In this document: one piece after another, positions 48,312-56,749 of the stretch
Position numbering within the stretch: position 1 is the first letter of the stretch
How the letters are laid out: every line of letters begins with the position of its first letter
The notes under the pieces: generated by a model
The model's database searches: none
What the model was told of the DNA's origin: nothing
The model's input: the letters and a program-made list of their open reading frames with translations, nothing else
DNA from: Listeria ivanovii subsp. londoniensis
GTDB taxonomy: Bacteria; Bacillota; Bacilli; Lactobacillales; Listeriaceae
Length of the DNA: 64,000 nt
Reading direction: 5' to 3'
Assembly (NCBI RefSeq): GCF_000763495.1
Contig: NZ_CP009576.1
Span: 816,001 to 880,000 of the forward strand
Position numbers and translations under genes: made by a program

Positions 48312-48638
48312 GTGAGAGGACTAACAGAGCTACTTAAAGGGAGTTTAGAAGGCATGATATTAGAGCGCATTTCCAGAGGCGAAACGTATGGTTACGAAAT
48401 CACGAAATACCTCAACGATTTGGGTTTTGATGAGATAGTAGAGGGAACGGTATATACAATTCTCCTCCGTATTGAAAAAAAAGGATTAGTAGAAGTAGAA
48501 AAGAAAAAATCGGATTTAGGTCCAGCTAGAAAATTTTACACATTAAGTGAAAGTGGCAAAGAAGAGTTAGCGCTTTTTTGGAAACGTTGGGAATTTATTC
48601 AAGCGAAAATGATTCAAGTAAAAGGAGGGCAAGTATAA
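48312..48638 (+). CDS. PadR-family transcriptional regulator
   Basis: 108 residues, the short PadR class (winged helix plus one dimerisation helix). LLKGSLEGMILERISRGETYGYEITKYL is the hallmark start and VYTILLRIEKKGLVEVEKKKSDLGPARKFYTLSESGKEELALFWKRW the wing. GTG start 48312 with AGAGGAG. It likely senses a substrate of the exporter encoded downstream, and represses its own operon from the palindrome at 48254-48297. Confidence 0.95.
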   Translation: MRGLTELLKGSLEGMILERISRGETYGYEITKYLNDLGFDEIVEGTVYTILLRIEKKGLVEVEKKKSDLGPARKFYTLSESGKEELALFWKRWEFIQAKMIQVKGGQV

Positions 48639-48961
48639 TGTTTAAATGGTATAAGAAATATCGTGAAGAAAAACGAGATTATAAACTATATAAGAAAAGA
48701 ATTGCTGCTTTGCCTGAAGACTATCAAACTGCAATGAAAGCAATCGAAACCTATTTATGGAGTTTTGCTAAAGGCGCAGGGATGTTTTATGTCTTAAAAA
48801 ACGTCTTAGAAATGTTTGAAAATGCTGTCGCGGATAATCTCGAATTAAAAGCAGTTGTTGGCGACGATTTAGCTGAGTTTGCTGATAATTTATTACTTGA
48901 ATACCCCGAAGAAACATGGCTAGACAAAGAGCGTAAAAAACTACGCAAATCAATGAAATAG
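48638..48961 (+). CDS. DUF1048-family protein
   Basis: 107-residue acidic helical protein (MFKWYKKYREEKRDYKLYKKRIAALPEDYQTAMKAIETYLW...). The DUF1048 family is regularly found beside PadR regulators and ABC exporters in Firmicutes, as here. Its ATG shares the last A of the padR stop, with AAAGGAGG nine bases before. Function unknown. Confidence 0.85.
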   Translation: MFKWYKKYREEKRDYKLYKKRIAALPEDYQTAMKAIETYLWSFAKGAGMFYVLKNVLEMFENAVADNLELKAVVGDDLAEFADNLLLEYPEETWLDKERKKLRKSMK

Positions 48962-48976
48962 GAAGAAGGGCTAATC

Positions 48977-49885
48977 ATGGCTATCATTGATATTCAGCAA
49001 GTCAAAAAGAATTTTAAAAAGCAAGAAGTTTTAAAGCAAGTCACCATACAAGTGGAAACCGGAAAGATTTACGCTTTACTAGGTGCAAATGGAGCAGGAA
49101 AGAGCACACTGCTTAAAATTATCACTGGCTTACTCTCAAGTGATGGCGGAGAAGTAACAATCAAAAATTTATCCGTCCAAAAAAATACCAAAGCAGTACA
49201 GCGTTTATTTAGTTACAATGCGCAACAGGCTAGTGTAGACGAGGTGCTGACTGGATATGAAAATTTACTGTTAATCGGAAAACTCCGCCACGAGAAACGG
49301 CCAAAAGAAGTCGCACTTTCACTTTTAGAACAATTTGGCTTATTAGATAGTAAAGACAAGTCTGTCTCTGCCTATTCAGGTGGAATGAAACGCCGCCTTG
49401 ACTTAGCTATGAGTTTGGTTGGGGATGCAGAAATACTTTTTTTAGATGAACCAACTACTGGCCTTGATCCAAGCAGCCGTTTCGAATTATGGGAAGTTAT
49501 TCAAAAACTCAAAAACAAGGGAAAAACGATTTTTCTAACGACGCAATATTTAGAAGAAGCAGATAAATTGGCCGACACGATTGGTTTCTTGAAAAATGGT
49601 GAAATTATTGCGACAGGCACGCCAAAAGAAATGAAGCGTTTAGCTGGGGAAAACAGTCTGATGCTTACATTCGCTCCAACAGACATCGAAAAAGCAAAAG
49701 AAGTACTCAGAGCATTTAATCCAAAACAACTAAGCGATGTAATTTTATCAGTAGAGCTTGTGGAGGAAATAAAAACGACTTTAGACATTTTGAAAGAATT
49801 ATCTTTGAATCAGCTTGAGCCACAAGACTTTGAGACTATTCGTCCAACGCTTGATGACGTATTTATCGCGTTAACGAAAGGGTGA
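48977..49885 (+). CDS. ABC transporter ATP-binding protein
   Basis: 302-residue ATPase of an ABC-2 exporter: Walker A GANGAGKST (36-44), signature YSGGMKRRLDLA, Walker B ILFLDEPTTGLDPSS and a switch residue changed to Gln (LTTQYLEEAD instead of His), as in DrrA-type ATPases. Followed after 6 bp by its permease. Probably a drug or peptide efflux system controlled by the PadR protein. Confidence 0.93.
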   Translation: MAIIDIQQVKKNFKKQEVLKQVTIQVETGKIYALLGANGAGKSTLLKIITGLLSSDGGEVTIKNLSVQKNTKAVQRLFSYNAQQASVDEVLTGYENLLLIGKLRHEKRPKEVALSLLEQFGLLDSKDKSVSAYSGGMKRRLDLAMSLVGDAEILFLDEPTTGLDPSSRFELWEVIQKLKNKGKTIFLTTQYLEEADKLADTIGFLKNGEIIATGTPKEMKRLAGENSLMLTFAPTDIEKAKEVLRAFNPKQLSDVILSVELVEEIKTTLDILKELSLNQLEPQDFETIRPTLDDVFIALTKG

Positions 49886-49891
49886 ATTAGA

Positions 49892-50659
49892 ATGATGATA
49901 AAAGAATATTTTCAGGATATTTTTGCACTGGCAGGGCGGATTATTAAACATAACATCCGCAGTTTGGACACGATGATTACAGTTGTTGCAATGCCGATTA
50001 TGTTAATGCTTGGAATGGTTTATATTTTTGGTGGGTCGGTGAAGATTGAAGGCTTGTCACAGCAAGATTATATCGACTACATCGTCCCAGGAATTCTCTT
50101 GATGACGATTGCAACAGGATCCGCTTATACAGCACTTCGAATTAATTTAGATAAAACAGCCGGTATGTTTGAACGCTTTAAATCAATGCCAATTGCTAAA
50201 TCAGCAGTAATAGGTGGACACGTAGTTGCATCCGTTATTTTTATGTTAATCTCTTGTTTAGCTGTTTTGATTGTGGCGTGGGTAATTGGTTTTAGAACGG
50301 ATGCGAATTTTGGTGAATGGAGCTTGATTGTATTATTGCTCGTTTTGTTTGCCTTCATGCTCACTTGGCTATCTGTACCATTTGGCTTAATGGCTGGGAG
50401 CGTTGAAGGAGCAGGAGCATTTTCTTACATTATCTTGATGCTCTTGTTTGTCAGCTCAGCATTCGTTCCAGTGGAAGGGATGGCAAAGGTTGTCCGGATA
50501 TTCGCTGAAAACCAGCCAATGACGCCAATTATCCAATCCTTGCGTGACTTGTTTACATCCGCACCACTTTCAAATGATATCTGGTTAGCGCTTGGTTGGA
50601 TGTTTGCGATATTGATTGTTTCTTATATTGGTGGAATGTTTGTTTATAAAAAAATCTAA
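49892..50659 (+). CDS. ABC-2 type permease (DrrB-like)
   Basis: 255-residue permease with six hydrophobic helices and the DrrB-like patterns MPIMLMLGMVYIFGG and YIDYIVPGILLMTIATGSAYTALRINLDKTAGMFERFKSMPI (EAA-like loop R-F-[KR]-[ST]-[ML]-P). Last gene of the padR operon. Confidence 0.92.
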   Translation: MMIKEYFQDIFALAGRIIKHNIRSLDTMITVVAMPIMLMLGMVYIFGGSVKIEGLSQQDYIDYIVPGILLMTIATGSAYTALRINLDKTAGMFERFKSMPIAKSAVIGGHVVASVIFMLISCLAVLIVAWVIGFRTDANFGEWSLIVLLLVLFAFMLTWLSVPFGLMAGSVEGAGAFSYIILMLLFVSSAFVPVEGMAKVVRIFAENQPMTPIIQSLRDLFTSAPLSNDIWLALGWMFAILIVSYIGGMFVYKKI

Positions 50660-50662
50660 CAA

Positions 50663-50700
50663 AAAGAGGCGGGAGATAAGTCCCGGCCTCTTTTTTTATT
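50663..50700 (+). terminator. Bidirectional terminator
   Basis: AAAGAGGC plus GGGA (50663-50674) pairs with TCCC plus GGCCTCTTT (50681-50693), with flanking A- and T-runs. It serves both the padR operon and the FusB-like gene that ends at 50696. Confidence 0.88.
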
Positions 50701-51343
50701 TTCGTTTCCGAACAACCGCAATAAATTCATCTAAAGTTTCCCGAGCTTTTATTTGCTCATTACATACATTGCTATCATAACAAATATAATTTCCATTTGT
50801 CGTATAGATTCCATCGCCCGAAGATTTTGTTTTTGCCATGAAAAGCGAGACTTTCGAGTGGGAATGACAAATAGAGCAGACGCCTTTTTGGATATCAGCA
50901 GAAATGGTTCCTTCTACACCAACCAAGTTTCCATCGTTATAAGTAATGATATATTTCCGCTGTTGAGCAATATCATTCCAACCATAAAACGTGTAATCGC
51001 GCAAATTAAGTTTTGACCACGTAGGTATTTTTAATTTCTTTGTTTTGGCAAATACCTTTTTAAGTTTCGCATCACTAGGCGATACAAATGGAATAACAAA
51101 TGCCTTCAATTCTTCAAGAAATGGCTCAGCTTCTTTCGTAGTAGTAATCGCATGCATTTGGATAAATAAATCCTGATGCTCTTCTAATTCAGCTTGCGAA
51201 AAAATTTGATTGATTTTCTCCTCCGTTAATGACTTCAAAGCCTTAAGCGTCGAAGTATCATTTGCGGAACGGTATGCGCGAGAAACATTGTTTAATTGAT
51301 TTTTAATAAAATTATATTGGTAAGGTTCTATAAACTCTTTCAT
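50696..51343 (-). CDS. FusB/FusC-like EF-G-binding protein
   Basis: 215 residues. The N-terminal half is a helical bundle; the C-terminal half carries a four-Cys treble-clef zinc finger, C156-x2-C159 (GVCSICH) and C188-x5-C194 (YICYDSNVC), the FBP_C domain of FusB proteins. FusB-type proteins bind elongation factor G and free ribosomes stalled by fusidic acid. Older annotation calls the Listeria protein fibronectin-binding. AAAGGAG precedes the ATG. An 18-codon leader and hairpins lie upstream (51395-51497), the arrangement of an antibiotic-induced gene. Whether it confers resistance here is not known. Confidence 0.85.
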   Translation of the reverse strand: MKEFIEPYQYNFIKNQLNNVSRAYRSANDTSTLKALKSLTEEKINQIFSQAELEEHQDLFIQMHAITTTKEAEPFLEELKAFVIPFVSPSDAKLKKVFAKTKKLKIPTWSKLNLRDYTFYGWNDIAQQRKYIITYNDGNLVGVEGTISADIQKGVCSICHSHSKVSLFMAKTKSSGDGIYTTNGNYICYDSNVCNEQIKARETLDEFIAVVRKRK

Positions 51344-51394
51344 TAGTAAATCTCCTTTAATAGTTTAATTTGGGTTAAACTAGCTTCGGGATTG

Positions 51395-51459
51395 AAGAGT
51401 CTATTTTTTTCACTCTTACTTTCTAGGCAATCCAAAAGCCATTGTTAGAAAGTACAGAG
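51395..51459 (-). promoter_or_regulatory. Attenuator hairpins of the FusB-like gene
   Basis: Minus-strand TACTTTCTA (51454-51446) inside the leader ORF pairs with TAGAAAGTA (51425-51417) over the leader stop, extended by CTCT/AGAG across a one-base bulge to 13 bp. A second stem, AAGAGT (51417-51412) with ACTCTT (51400-51395), reuses the same bases, so the two are mutually exclusive. A third dyad (51362-51381, AGTTTAA/TTAAACT) abuts the Shine-Dalgarno of the main gene. Confidence 0.65.
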
Positions 51460-51479
51460 CAGTGCAATTTTAAATGCAT
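51423..51479 (-). CDS. 18-residue leader peptide of the FusB-like gene
   Basis: ATG 51479-51477 opens MHLKLHCSVLSNNGFWIA and ends at TAG 51425-51423. AAGGTGGTGA (51497-51488) is a fitting Shine-Dalgarno. The predicted transcription start (~51497) lies just at its front. Codons 9-13 form one arm of the attenuator hairpin, so a ribosome stalled in the leader would change folding ahead of the EF-G-binding gene. Confidence 0.6.
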   Translation of the reverse strand: MHLKLHCSVLSNNGFWIA

Positions 51480-51503
51480 CTGTTTGATCACCACCTTGCC
51501 TTC

Positions 51504-51532
51504 ATTATAAGCACTTTCGAATTCTTCGTCAA
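51504..51532 (-). promoter_or_regulatory. Promoter of the FusB-like gene (TTGACG-N17-TATAAT)
   Basis: On the minus strand TTGACG (51532-51527), 17 bp, TATAAT (51509-51504): nearly consensus sigma-A. The leader from ~51497 to the main ATG is about 150 nt. Confidence 0.85.
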
Positions 51533-51618
51533 TGCTCGGTCATGAATATTTTTCACAAAATAGGGTAAACGAAAACTATTACACAAAATAGAAAAGTTTT
51601 ATGGGAGGAGAAATAGCA

Positions 51619-53349
51619 ATGTCAAAAGTAAAAGCAAGTGAAACACTCGTACAAACATTAAAAAATTGGGGTATCGACCATGTATACGGATTGCCGGGTG
51701 ACTCGATTGATACGGTAGTTGATGCTTTAAGAGAAGAGCAAGAAGAAATTGAGTTTATTCACGTTCGTCATGAGGAAGTAGCCACTTTAGCCGCTGCCGC
51801 TTACTCTAAACTAACCGGAAAAATTGGTGTCGCATTATCTATCGGCGGACCTGGTGCGATTCATATGTTAAATGGTATGTATGATGCCAAAATGGACCAT
51901 GTACCAATGCTCGTCCTGGCTGGGCAAGTTACAACAGATGTTCTAAATACCGGTTTTTTTCAAGAAGTAAATTTACCAGCAATTTTTGAAGATGTAGCAG
52001 TTTATAATAAACAAATTGATAATGCTGAAACCCTTGCAGATGTCGTCGATGAAGCCATTCGTACTGCTTATAAAGAAAAAGGGGTTGCCGTTCTCACGAT
52101 TCCAAATGACATTCCTGCGCAAACAATCAAAGCGAACCTAGAAGCAAAACCAGTAAAATTCGAACAAAAAAATCCGAAACTCGATGAAATGGACCTTCAA
52201 GAAGCCATCGCATTAATCGATAAAGCGGAAAAACCAGTTATTTTAGCAGGGCTTGGAACAAAGCATGCTGGAGCAGAACTTTTAGCATTTGCGGAAAAAG
52301 CTAAAATCCCAATCATTAACTCCTTACCAGCCAAAACCATTATTCCAGATGATCACTTAAATGCACTTGGAAACCTTGGCAAAATCGGAACGAAACCTGC
52401 CTATGAAGCCATGCAGGAAACCGATTTACTTTTAATGTTTGGAAATGATTATCCGTACAGCAATTATTTACCTAAAAAAGCAAATTGTATTCAAATCGAC
52501 ATTGATCCTTCCAGAATTAGCAAACGCTATCCAGTGACTGTGGGATTAGTTGGTGACGCAGCAGAAATCATTTCTAATTTAACAGCAAAAATTGCTCCTG
52601 TAACAGAACGCAAATTCCTCCAAGCTTGCCAAGAAAACATGCAAGAATGGTGGAAATGGCTAGAAGAAGATACAAGTAAAACAACTGATCCAATCGCGCC
52701 AGAAGTTGTGATGGCGAACATTCAGAAAATCGCCGAGAAAGACGCTATTTTCTCCATTGATGTCGGAACAGCTACTGTTTGGAGTACACGTTATTTACAT
52801 TTAACCCCACAAAATGATTTCCTTGTTTCTGCTTGGTTAGGCACGATGGGTTGCGGTTTGCCAGGAGCAATTGCTGCGAAAAAAGCTTTTCCAGACCGCC
52901 AAGCTATCGCCATCGTAGGAGACGGAGGTTTTTCGATGGTAATGCAAGACTTCGTAACCGCAGTCGGACAAAAAATGCCCATGATTGTCGTAGTTTTAAA
53001 TAACCAAGAGCTTTCTTTCATTAAATACGAACAACAATCAGCCGGAGAATTAAATTATGCAATTGACTTACCAGATATCAATTACGCAAAATTTGCAGAA
53101 AGCTGTGGCGGCATCGGTTTCCGAGTAGAAAAAATGGCCGACCTAGAAAATGCTTTTGAAAGCGCAAAACTCGCAACTAAACCAGTAATCATAGATGTTT
53201 CCGTAGATAGTTCAGCCGCGCCACTACCAGGAAAAATCATTATGGACGAAGCACTTGGCTACACCAAATTTGAAATCGGGTCAATTATAGAAGATCACCG
53301 TTTTGCTAAAATGCCACCGCTAAAAACAATTTTACGTAGATTTTTATAA
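51619..53349 (+). CDS. Thiamine-diphosphate-dependent pyruvate oxidase
   Basis: 576 residues with the three ThDP-enzyme domains: the N-terminal PYR domain (VYGLPGDSIDTVVDAL, HVRHEEVATLAAAAYSKLTGKIGVALSIGGPGAIHMLNG with the conserved Glu), a central FAD-binding domain, and the C-terminal domain with the metal/ThDP motif GDGGFSMVMQDF...NN. Most like pyruvate oxidases (POX/SpxB type), which make acetyl phosphate, CO2 and H2O2. ATG 51619 with GGGAGGAG is preferred over ATG 51601. Confidence 0.88.
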   Translation: MSKVKASETLVQTLKNWGIDHVYGLPGDSIDTVVDALREEQEEIEFIHVRHEEVATLAAAAYSKLTGKIGVALSIGGPGAIHMLNGMYDAKMDHVPMLVLAGQVTTDVLNTGFFQEVNLPAIFEDVAVYNKQIDNAETLADVVDEAIRTAYKEKGVAVLTIPNDIPAQTIKANLEAKPVKFEQKNPKLDEMDLQEAIALIDKAEKPVILAGLGTKHAGAELLAFAEKAKIPIINSLPAKTIIPDDHLNALGNLGKIGTKPAYEAMQETDLLLMFGNDYPYSNYLPKKANCIQIDIDPSRISKRYPVTVGLVGDAAEIISNLTAKIAPVTERKFLQACQENMQEWWKWLEEDTSKTTDPIAPEVVMANIQKIAEKDAIFSIDVGTATVWSTRYLHLTPQNDFLVSAWLGTMGCGLPGAIAAKKAFPDRQAIAIVGDGGFSMVMQDFVTAVGQKMPMIVVVLNNQELSFIKYEQQSAGELNYAIDLPDINYAKFAESCGGIGFRVEKMADLENAFESAKLATKPVIIDVSVDSSAAPLPGKIIMDEALGYTKFEIGSIIEDHRFAKMPPLKTILRRFL

Positions 53350-56469: not shown

Positions 56470-56655
56470 AACTGAATAGAAGCGCCAGAACTGATCGGAG
56501 CGAAATTACTTTCTAGGTGAAATTCCTAAAAGTAACGGGTCAGTTGACGAGGAGGAGATTAATCGAAGTTTCGGCGGGAGTCTCCCGGCTGTGCATGCAG
56601 TCGTTAAGTCTTACTTACAAATCATTTGGGTGACCAGATGGACAGAGTAGTAAAG
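56470..56655 (+). ncRNA. glmS ribozyme: glmS ribozyme riboswitch
   Basis: Contains the conserved core in order: AGCGCCAGAACTG at 56481 (cleavage between A56481 and G56482), the P2 hairpin with TTACTTTCTAGG...AAAGTAAC, CAGTTGACGAGGAGGAGATT, TCGAAGTTTCGGCGGGAGTCTCCCGGCTGTGCATGCAGTCG in pieces, and the P4 region with GGGTGACCAGATGGACAGAG. Glucosamine-6-phosphate acts as cofactor for self-cleavage, which destabilises the glmS mRNA. It ends ~95 nt before the glmS start, with a G/A-rich segment and Shine-Dalgarno between. Confidence 0.95.
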
Positions 56656-56749
56656 AAACATGCGCTCTACCCTCCAAGGAAACCAAAAAAATAAAGAGGG
56701 CTTGAAATTGGATAAGTCTGCCCGAAGTTAATTATTGGAGGAATTTATT

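Follow-up and report, generated by a model that had tools for sequence, protein, structure and literature searches.

The region upstream of the fusB homologue of Listeria ivanovii subsp. londoniensis is very probably a chromosomal translational attenuator of the fusB kind, as judged from modelling. The window analyzed is a stretch of 64,000 nucleotides (NCBI RefSeq assembly GCF_000763495.1, contig NZ_CP009576.1, positions 816,001 to 880,000), and all coordinates are positions within it; leader and gene lie on its minus strand. A first-pass annotation had proposed attenuation by a leader peptide for a FusB-like gene, and this proposal was supported by conservation, by modelling of the switch against shuffled sequences, on some measures by covariation of stems across genera, and by the similar behaviour of the fusB leader of pUB101 in the model.

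The fusB locus and its leader

The gene (51343-50696, 215 aa) was assigned to the FusB-type EF-G-binding proteins using Pfam domains and a structure match. Its product matches PF07299 (E 2.3e-26, 92.5 bits, cut-off 27.1) and PF16571 (E 7.9e-12, 45.4 bits, cut-off 27.2), and by sequence it combines the EF-G-binding N-terminal domain and the zinc-finger C-terminal domain that mark the family. Residues C156, C159, C188, and C194 are invariant across 12 aligned FusB-type proteins and are presumably zinc ligands, and the top match among solved structures is Far1/FusB (PDB 9ghc, E 1.4e-47). The NCBIfam cut-offs for the resistance alleles fusB/C/D/F were not reached (best 168.5 bits versus 375), and by these scores the gene is a homologue and none of the named staphylococcal alleles. 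It is the single PF07299 match in the whole genome, a relative is present in 24 of 25 genomes of the same genus, contigs of named Listeria match at 82-89%, and pUB101 FusB is 41.7% identical to the Listeria homologue over 92% of the protein. Homologues of L. innocua, L. monocytogenes, and L. welshimeri are credited with experimental evidence of resistance, according to a figure legend in PMC3352095. One Listeria record filed as a plasmid (NZ_CP030101.1, 2.9 Mb) also carries the homologue; it is a chromosome by size and is likely mis-filed.

Upstream of the gene, a promoter-like site (TTGACG-N17-TATAAT, 51532-51504), already named in the first-pass annotation, has 11 of 12 consensus matches, and both hexamers are identical across all 15 Listeria loci with a close homologue. 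It is the top-scoring of five sites found by the promoter scan in 50000-53000; at the threshold of the scan, the same region yields 8.0 sites on average when shuffled, so promoter-like sites as such are common. The Shine-Dalgarno sequence AAGGTGGTGAT (51497-51487) precedes the leader MHLKLHCSVLSNNGFWIA, an ORF of 18 codons (ATG at 51479, stop TAG at 51425-51423) that, like its Shine-Dalgarno sequence, had been called correctly. The leader ORF is present in 15/15 Listeria loci with a close homologue, the one in the window included, with peptide variants. The duplex with the 16S rRNA 3' end was calculated at -17.6 kcal/mol for the leader Shine-Dalgarno versus -9.1 kcal/mol for the fusB site (AAAGGAG, 51358-51352). 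When the 41 window ORFs of at least 150 aa with a Shine-Dalgarno energy of -8 kcal/mol or better at their own start were compared, only the fusB homologue was preceded by a leader with a Shine-Dalgarno energy of -15 or lower.

No intrinsic terminator was found by a consensus scan of the minus strand between leader and gene (51423-51343), which points to translational and not transcriptional attenuation, and transcription attenuation of the rli80/hflXr kind was rejected on this ground. A known Rfam element was also rejected, the sole window match at gathering thresholds being the glmS ribozyme riboswitch elsewhere (56470-56665, plus strand, 141.8 bits). Convergent with fusB on the plus strand (48312-50659) are ORFs that by eye resemble genes for a PadR-type regulator, a DUF1048 protein, and an ABC transporter, and the annotation of another locus (L061) places LftR and DUF1048 next to fusB. 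A terminator-like hairpin at 50670-50685 was scored on both strands.

Predicted folds and the modelled effect of a halted ribosome

The leader RNA folds with a z-score of -4.46, and none of 200 shuffles folded equally well. The 13-bp leader hairpin of the first-pass annotation, with its first arm inside the leader and the second on the leader stop, was recovered with 13 pairs. Arm 1 (51459-51446, leader codons 7-12) reads CTCT (51459-51456)-G-TACTTTCTA (51454-51446), and its CTCT and TACTTTCTA parts pair with arm 2 (TAGAAAGTAAGAG, 51425-51413, starting on the leader stop), that is, with AGAG (51416-51413) and TAGAAAGTA (51425-51417). The local hairpin of TAGTTTAA (51382-51375) with TTAAACTA (51368-51361), likewise named before as a third dyad, ends two bases upstream of the fusB Shine-Dalgarno.

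In the minimum-energy fold, the 17 bases at 51404-51388 are paired with the gene start at 51355-51330. These are the first 17 bases of arm 3 (ATAGACTCTTCAATCCCGAAGCTA, 51404-51381), and arm 4 (51355-51330) comprises the Shine-Dalgarno stretch GGAGAT, the TG of the ATG at 51343, and codons 2-5. Within the 17 pairs of this closed fold, ATAGACTCTT (51404-51395) pairs with AAGAGTTTAT (51339-51330, codons 2-5), CA with the TG of the start codon, and ATCCC with GG-GAT in the Shine-Dalgarno stretch, with the local dyad inside. This OFF-state pairing was absent from the first-pass description; the pairing of a segment 3' of the leader with the fusB Shine-Dalgarno, start, and codons 2-5 is what makes the arrangement a switch.

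In the alternative (ON) fold, the 3' part of the leader, TGGCTTTTGGATTG (51441-51428), pairs with CAATCCCGAAGCTA (51394-51381) of arm 3 in 13 of 14 positions, nested with a pairing of AAGAGT (51417-51412) and ACTCTT (51400-51395), which is the competing second stem reusing hairpin bases that had been noticed earlier. A complementarity of GGATTG in the hairpin loop with CAATCC near 51387-51392 had been described as an additional pairing; it is real, with CAATCC at 51394-51389, and forms the core of the 13/14-pair antisequestor, not a loose extra. The predicted arrangement is a four-arm design, closed as 1:2 with 3:4 and open with the leader part and arm 2 on arm 3.

The cost of opening the gene from its Shine-Dalgarno through its start codon was calculated using ViennaRNA while a ribosome footprint, reaching from 13 bases upstream to 15 bases downstream of the first P-codon base, was moved stepwise through the leader. 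For the window locus (L001), the cost was 7.5 kcal/mol for the free RNA, 2.6-3.5 with the P site at codons 5-9, and 7.5 with the ribosome at the stop; in the model, a ribosome at the leader start or stop codon leaves the fusB cost unlowered. The contrast between closed and halted states was 4.61, against -0.01 +/- 0.92 for shuffles, and was equalled by 2 of 1,000, the closed-state cost alone being not unusual (67/1000). Changes in footprint size moved the open window by a codon or two, and codon 7 was low under every setting tried. When codon 7 is in the P site, the single best fold retains the sequestering stem and the drop is one of the ensemble. The closed fold is predicted to sequester the ribosome-binding site and covering of arm 1 to open it, for L001 partially and in the ensemble only. 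Of the 14 other Listeria loci, all at 5.7-9.2 kcal/mol when free, L002-L004 dropped to about 2-3 and the remaining 11 to about 1; for L006 with 60 nt of the gene included the cost dropped only to 4.8.

The fusB leader of pUB101 was chosen as a yardstick because its induction is reported in the literature. In the same model, its cost fell from 8.5 to 1.8 kcal/mol (0/1000 shuffles), with opening predicted for a P site at codons 5-11; without the 25 nt upstream of the leader, the drop was only from 6.1 to about 4. Shuffle tests were then extended to 64 of 88 leader loci, 24 near-duplicates having been dropped. No shuffle out of 60 did as well at 21 of the 64, and at most 3 of 60 did so at 39, where 4.2 were expected. 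The 25 loci that fail to separate from shuffles (>3/60) include the enterococcal MHNNVSYLKELGLNK and MHRQNVSYLKSMGLYK types, with several NVSYLKE leaders among the enterococcal ones, and two relatives of the Listeria class, L086 and L103. Six of the 39 separating loci (L081, L083, L088, L091, L099, and L104) owe their contrast to the stop-codon position, the opening gained from the halted ribosome being <1 kcal/mol. Codon 8 is inside the open window in 31 of the 39, with differing peptides. Eight further loci (seven from genus g88, one other) gave 0/60 shuffles in five and 1, 5, and 7 in one each.

Variants of the fold were seen outside Listeria. L098 builds the first hairpin with 13 pairs from letters other than those of Listeria. 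In Vagococcus salmoninarum (L100, L140), leader codons 7-9 pair directly with the gene Shine-Dalgarno in the best fold, which on modelling is a simpler variant of the same switch design. At L129, L132, L147, L149, L165, and L173 (the Enterococcus gallinarum/casseliflavus group and E. timonensis), the leader ends only 21-41 bases upstream of the gene start; the four-arm design may be unsuited to these, and another coupling may operate.

Leaders across FusB-type loci

A leader was defined as an ORF of 8-45 codons with a Shine-Dalgarno energy of -10 or better and a start at most 145 bases upstream of the gene. The rule was applied to 109 regions; 113 genomes had a match, and G035, G047, G095, G218, and G241, with short or broken matches, were left out. 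A leader was found at 15/15 close Listeria loci and, elsewhere in the order, at 72 of 78 loci (with L075 counted as a doubtful case), giving 87 of 93 FusB-type loci; the peptides differ across the order and their place upstream of the gene is similar. Under the same rule, leaders were found at none of the distant FusB-like loci, nine in other Listeria and seven in a sister genus. The distant gene in other Listeria species (L016-L021, L025-L027) is 30-37% identical where matched full-length, and in G001, G006, and G007 the match is split in two pieces, some with stops.

Among 54 named loci (species partly repeated), 45 carry a leader, in Listeria, Enterococcus, Vagococcus, Weissella, and Secundilactobacillus; by the same rule, none was found at the Macrococcus, Gracilibacillus, Mesobacillus, and Jeotgalibacillus loci of this set. 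An invention confined to Listeria was rejected, as leaders precede FusB-type genes in other genera. A class-wide search covered 26 of the 30 loci given, four repeats being left out and matches without a locus excluded. Seven fusD-like loci of g88 carry leaders, mostly of type MLHKNATLLIQS, and one of the seven lies above the fusD cut-off; the genus is taken from the fusD match to be Staphylococcus. Their Shine-Dalgarno energies (-9.3 to -10.1) are at the edge of the -10 cut-off, and they were accepted because the same peptide type recurs. Four further g88 loci were leaderless in this search, and a leader was found in one (L191) of the other 15 regions.

In a tree of 64 proteins, 54 rows, 51 of them with a leader, form one clade with 100/100 support; the three leaderless rows inside it are Macrococcus, and the ten rows outside are leaderless. 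The simplest reading is a single origin at the base of the clade with loss in Macrococcus, on which midpoint rooting and long branches cast some doubt. Peptide type tracks the protein tree. Three loci of genus g21 (L080, L095, and L096, from G267, G139, and G362) are leaderless by the rule and have genus mates with a leader; L080, the one inspected by eye, retains the bases just upstream of the gene, and the three are possible decayed switches.

Covariation was scored in an alignment (A3) of 17 rows, 11 of the 15 Listeria loci after removal of near-duplicates and six loci of two other genera, with Vagococcus among the named ones. Listeria leaders have the motif M-x-x-K-x-H, as do five of the six relatives. 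Shuffle counts in A3 are not probabilities, because the rows are related. The antisequestor stem was paired in 83.0% of cells versus 76.4% in shuffles (0/500) and 24-55% with slid partners, and eight cells were changed on both sides (1/500 shuffles); GGATTG/CAATCC is swapped for CAGTATTG/CAATACTG in three rows. The sequestering stem was paired in 85.9% versus 80.6% in shuffles (0/500) and 34-52% slid, with cells changed on both sides exceeding all but 1 of 500 shuffles. For the two stems, respectively, the counts of doubly changed pairs (33 and 87 of 500) and of further pair types (92 and 269 of 500) stayed within the range of shuffles. Arms 1:2 are nearly invariant in Listeria, with no covariation there, and in other genera have other letters and another register, so that A3 cannot score the first hairpin. 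AAGAGT/ACTCTT is invariant in the 11 Listeria rows and not kept in the six others, and the local hairpin before the Shine-Dalgarno is paired in 11/11 Listeria rows, with no variation. Covariation across Listeria leaders, suggested earlier as a check, is hence uninformative for the first hairpin, which hardly varies; the antisequestor and sequestering stems have cross-genus support from some of the measures only.

A covariance model of the Listeria/Vagococcus class (R1) gave hits in 22 of 295 genomes of the order, the best 12 candidates per listed genome being scored under stricter filters, with which weak copies elsewhere could be missed. Strong hits at fusB-type loci account for 21 of the 22, and the remaining one (G229, E 0.009) is weak; so far as seen, the element appears to belong to the fusB gene. 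By sequence comparison and modelling together, attenuators of this kind appear widespread in the chromosomal FusB clade.

Proposed mechanism, known systems, and alternatives

In the proposed mechanism, the mRNA would begin with the 18-codon leader under its strong Shine-Dalgarno. With the leader empty, or a ribosome at its start or stop, arm 1 would pair with arm 2 and arm 3 with the fusB start, keeping fusB off. If translation halted with one of codons 5-9 in the P site, the ribosome would cover arm 1, arm 2 and the 3' part of the leader would become free to pair with arm 3, and the fusB start would open. In nature, elongation would be arrested early in the leader, with trapping of EF-G by fusidic acid or a comparable block of translocation as the likeliest cause; conserved leader residues may set the position of the halt. 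FusB protein would then free the trapped EF-G, reading of the leader would resume, and the switch would close.

The closest known system is fusB (far1) of pUB101 in Staphylococcus aureus, reported to be controlled by translational attenuation in which fusidic-acid-inhibited ribosomes stall on the leader (PMC3352095, PMC12008383). Both systems have a FusB-family gene, a leader ORF with a strong Shine-Dalgarno, and predicted opening by an early-codon halt; pUB101 fusB differs in being plasmid-borne and in its leader, MLKDITYLKLLDLEYKMLCS, which has no evident likeness to that of Listeria. The predicted sequestering stem lies just upstream of the Shine-Dalgarno in pUB101, whereas in Listeria it extends over Shine-Dalgarno, start codon, and codons 2-5. 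To our knowledge, the Listeria leader also has no evident likeness to ErmCL, and ermC/ermCL, with another drug target and another gene, is not a relative. That macrolide attenuator is alike in its leader, its competing stems, and the release of a sequestered ribosome-binding site by a stalled ribosome (PMC10219788). The hflXr/rli80 system of Listeria monocytogenes also places a ribosome-rescue gene under leader-ORF attenuation, but there the attenuation is transcriptional and uses a terminator and an RLR peptide (PMC6310831), whereas the scan found no terminator at the fusB locus. In E. coli toiL-topAI, a ribosome stalled on a uORF likewise exposes a downstream ribosome-binding site, but there the Shine-Dalgarno is paired directly with the uORF itself, and toiL is induced by agents that stall ribosomes at the start codon (PMC12121999); in the Listeria model, a start-codon halt is predicted not to induce. 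How FusB homologues are regulated is described as unknown in a 2025 review, staphylococcal resistance islands are stated to hold a leader peptide in front of fusB (PMC12561750), and the word leader does not occur in the text examined of the fusF paper (PMC12843955). Among the titles and abstract openings listed, no description was found of a leader before the Listeria or enterococcal homologue.

A broader form of the same explanation, compatible with it, is a general stall sensor in which any slow early elongation in the leader (several drug classes, shortage of EF-G, or shortage of charged tRNA) would open fusB, with fusidic acid as one trigger. Because the ON window covers codons 5-9 or 5-11 in the model, a halt at any of many positions would suffice; toiL in E. 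coli responds to several classes of antibiotic with differing stall codons (PMC12121999), and FusB homologues occur in chromosomes of bacteria described as unlikely to have met fusidic acid (PMC12008383). Such breadth has a chance somewhat below even: EF-G is what the gene product acts on, leaders within a clade resemble each other in their residues (M-x-x-K-x-H), which general sensing would not need, and pUB101 fusB is reportedly induced by fusidic acid (PMC3352095, PMC12008383). Rather unlikely, and also compatible with the attenuator reading, is a nascent-peptide arrest in which the leader peptide would sensitize the ribosome to the drug or EF-G state, as in erm leaders, with conserved Ser/Thr/His at codons 5-8 as the arrest motif. 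Consistent with this are the tracking of the protein tree by peptide type and a raw count of S/T, made without a codon-aware null: among 88 distinct leaders, 74 have S or T within codons 5-8 and 58 within codons 9-12 (29 and 22, respectively, among 35 representatives). The same bases, however, serve RNA pairing (UGCA repeats in Listeria; GUAUC in enterococci, by eye), so that selection on the peptide is not isolated, and leaders of different clades have little sequence in common.

That the region is a conserved 5' UTR without regulation, its stems due to chance or to mRNA stability, is very improbable. The 25 of 64 loci without a clear switch signal would fit it, but shuffles matched the contrast in only 2 of 1,000 cases for L001 and in none for the reportedly induced pUB101, leaders with a Shine-Dalgarno energy of -10 or better precede 87 of 93 FusB-type genes, and the antisequestor and sequestering stems show covariation on some measures.

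Taking the attenuator reading further, it is tentatively proposed, as a possibility a little short of an even one, that the leader switch is ancestral to the whole FusB clade and predates the clinical use of fusidic acid. FusB proteins would then be housekeeping rescue factors for jammed EF-G, and their leaders would form a family of built-in detectors of arrested translocation, responding to an early halt at about codons 5-9 with differing peptides and base pairs but a common geometry. The sensor of the plasmid resistance gene would be an inheritance, not an invention of its own. The locus and its relatives offer a testable answer on the regulation of FusB in Listeria, Enterococcus, Vagococcus, Weissella, and some staphylococci, namely attenuation by a leader peptide in which halts count within a defined window of codons. 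If the reading is true, early elongation arrest would induce the gene while start-codon or stop-codon arrest would not, the switch would report EF-G arrest in living cells, and a clinical resistance gene would be tied to an older chromosomal control.
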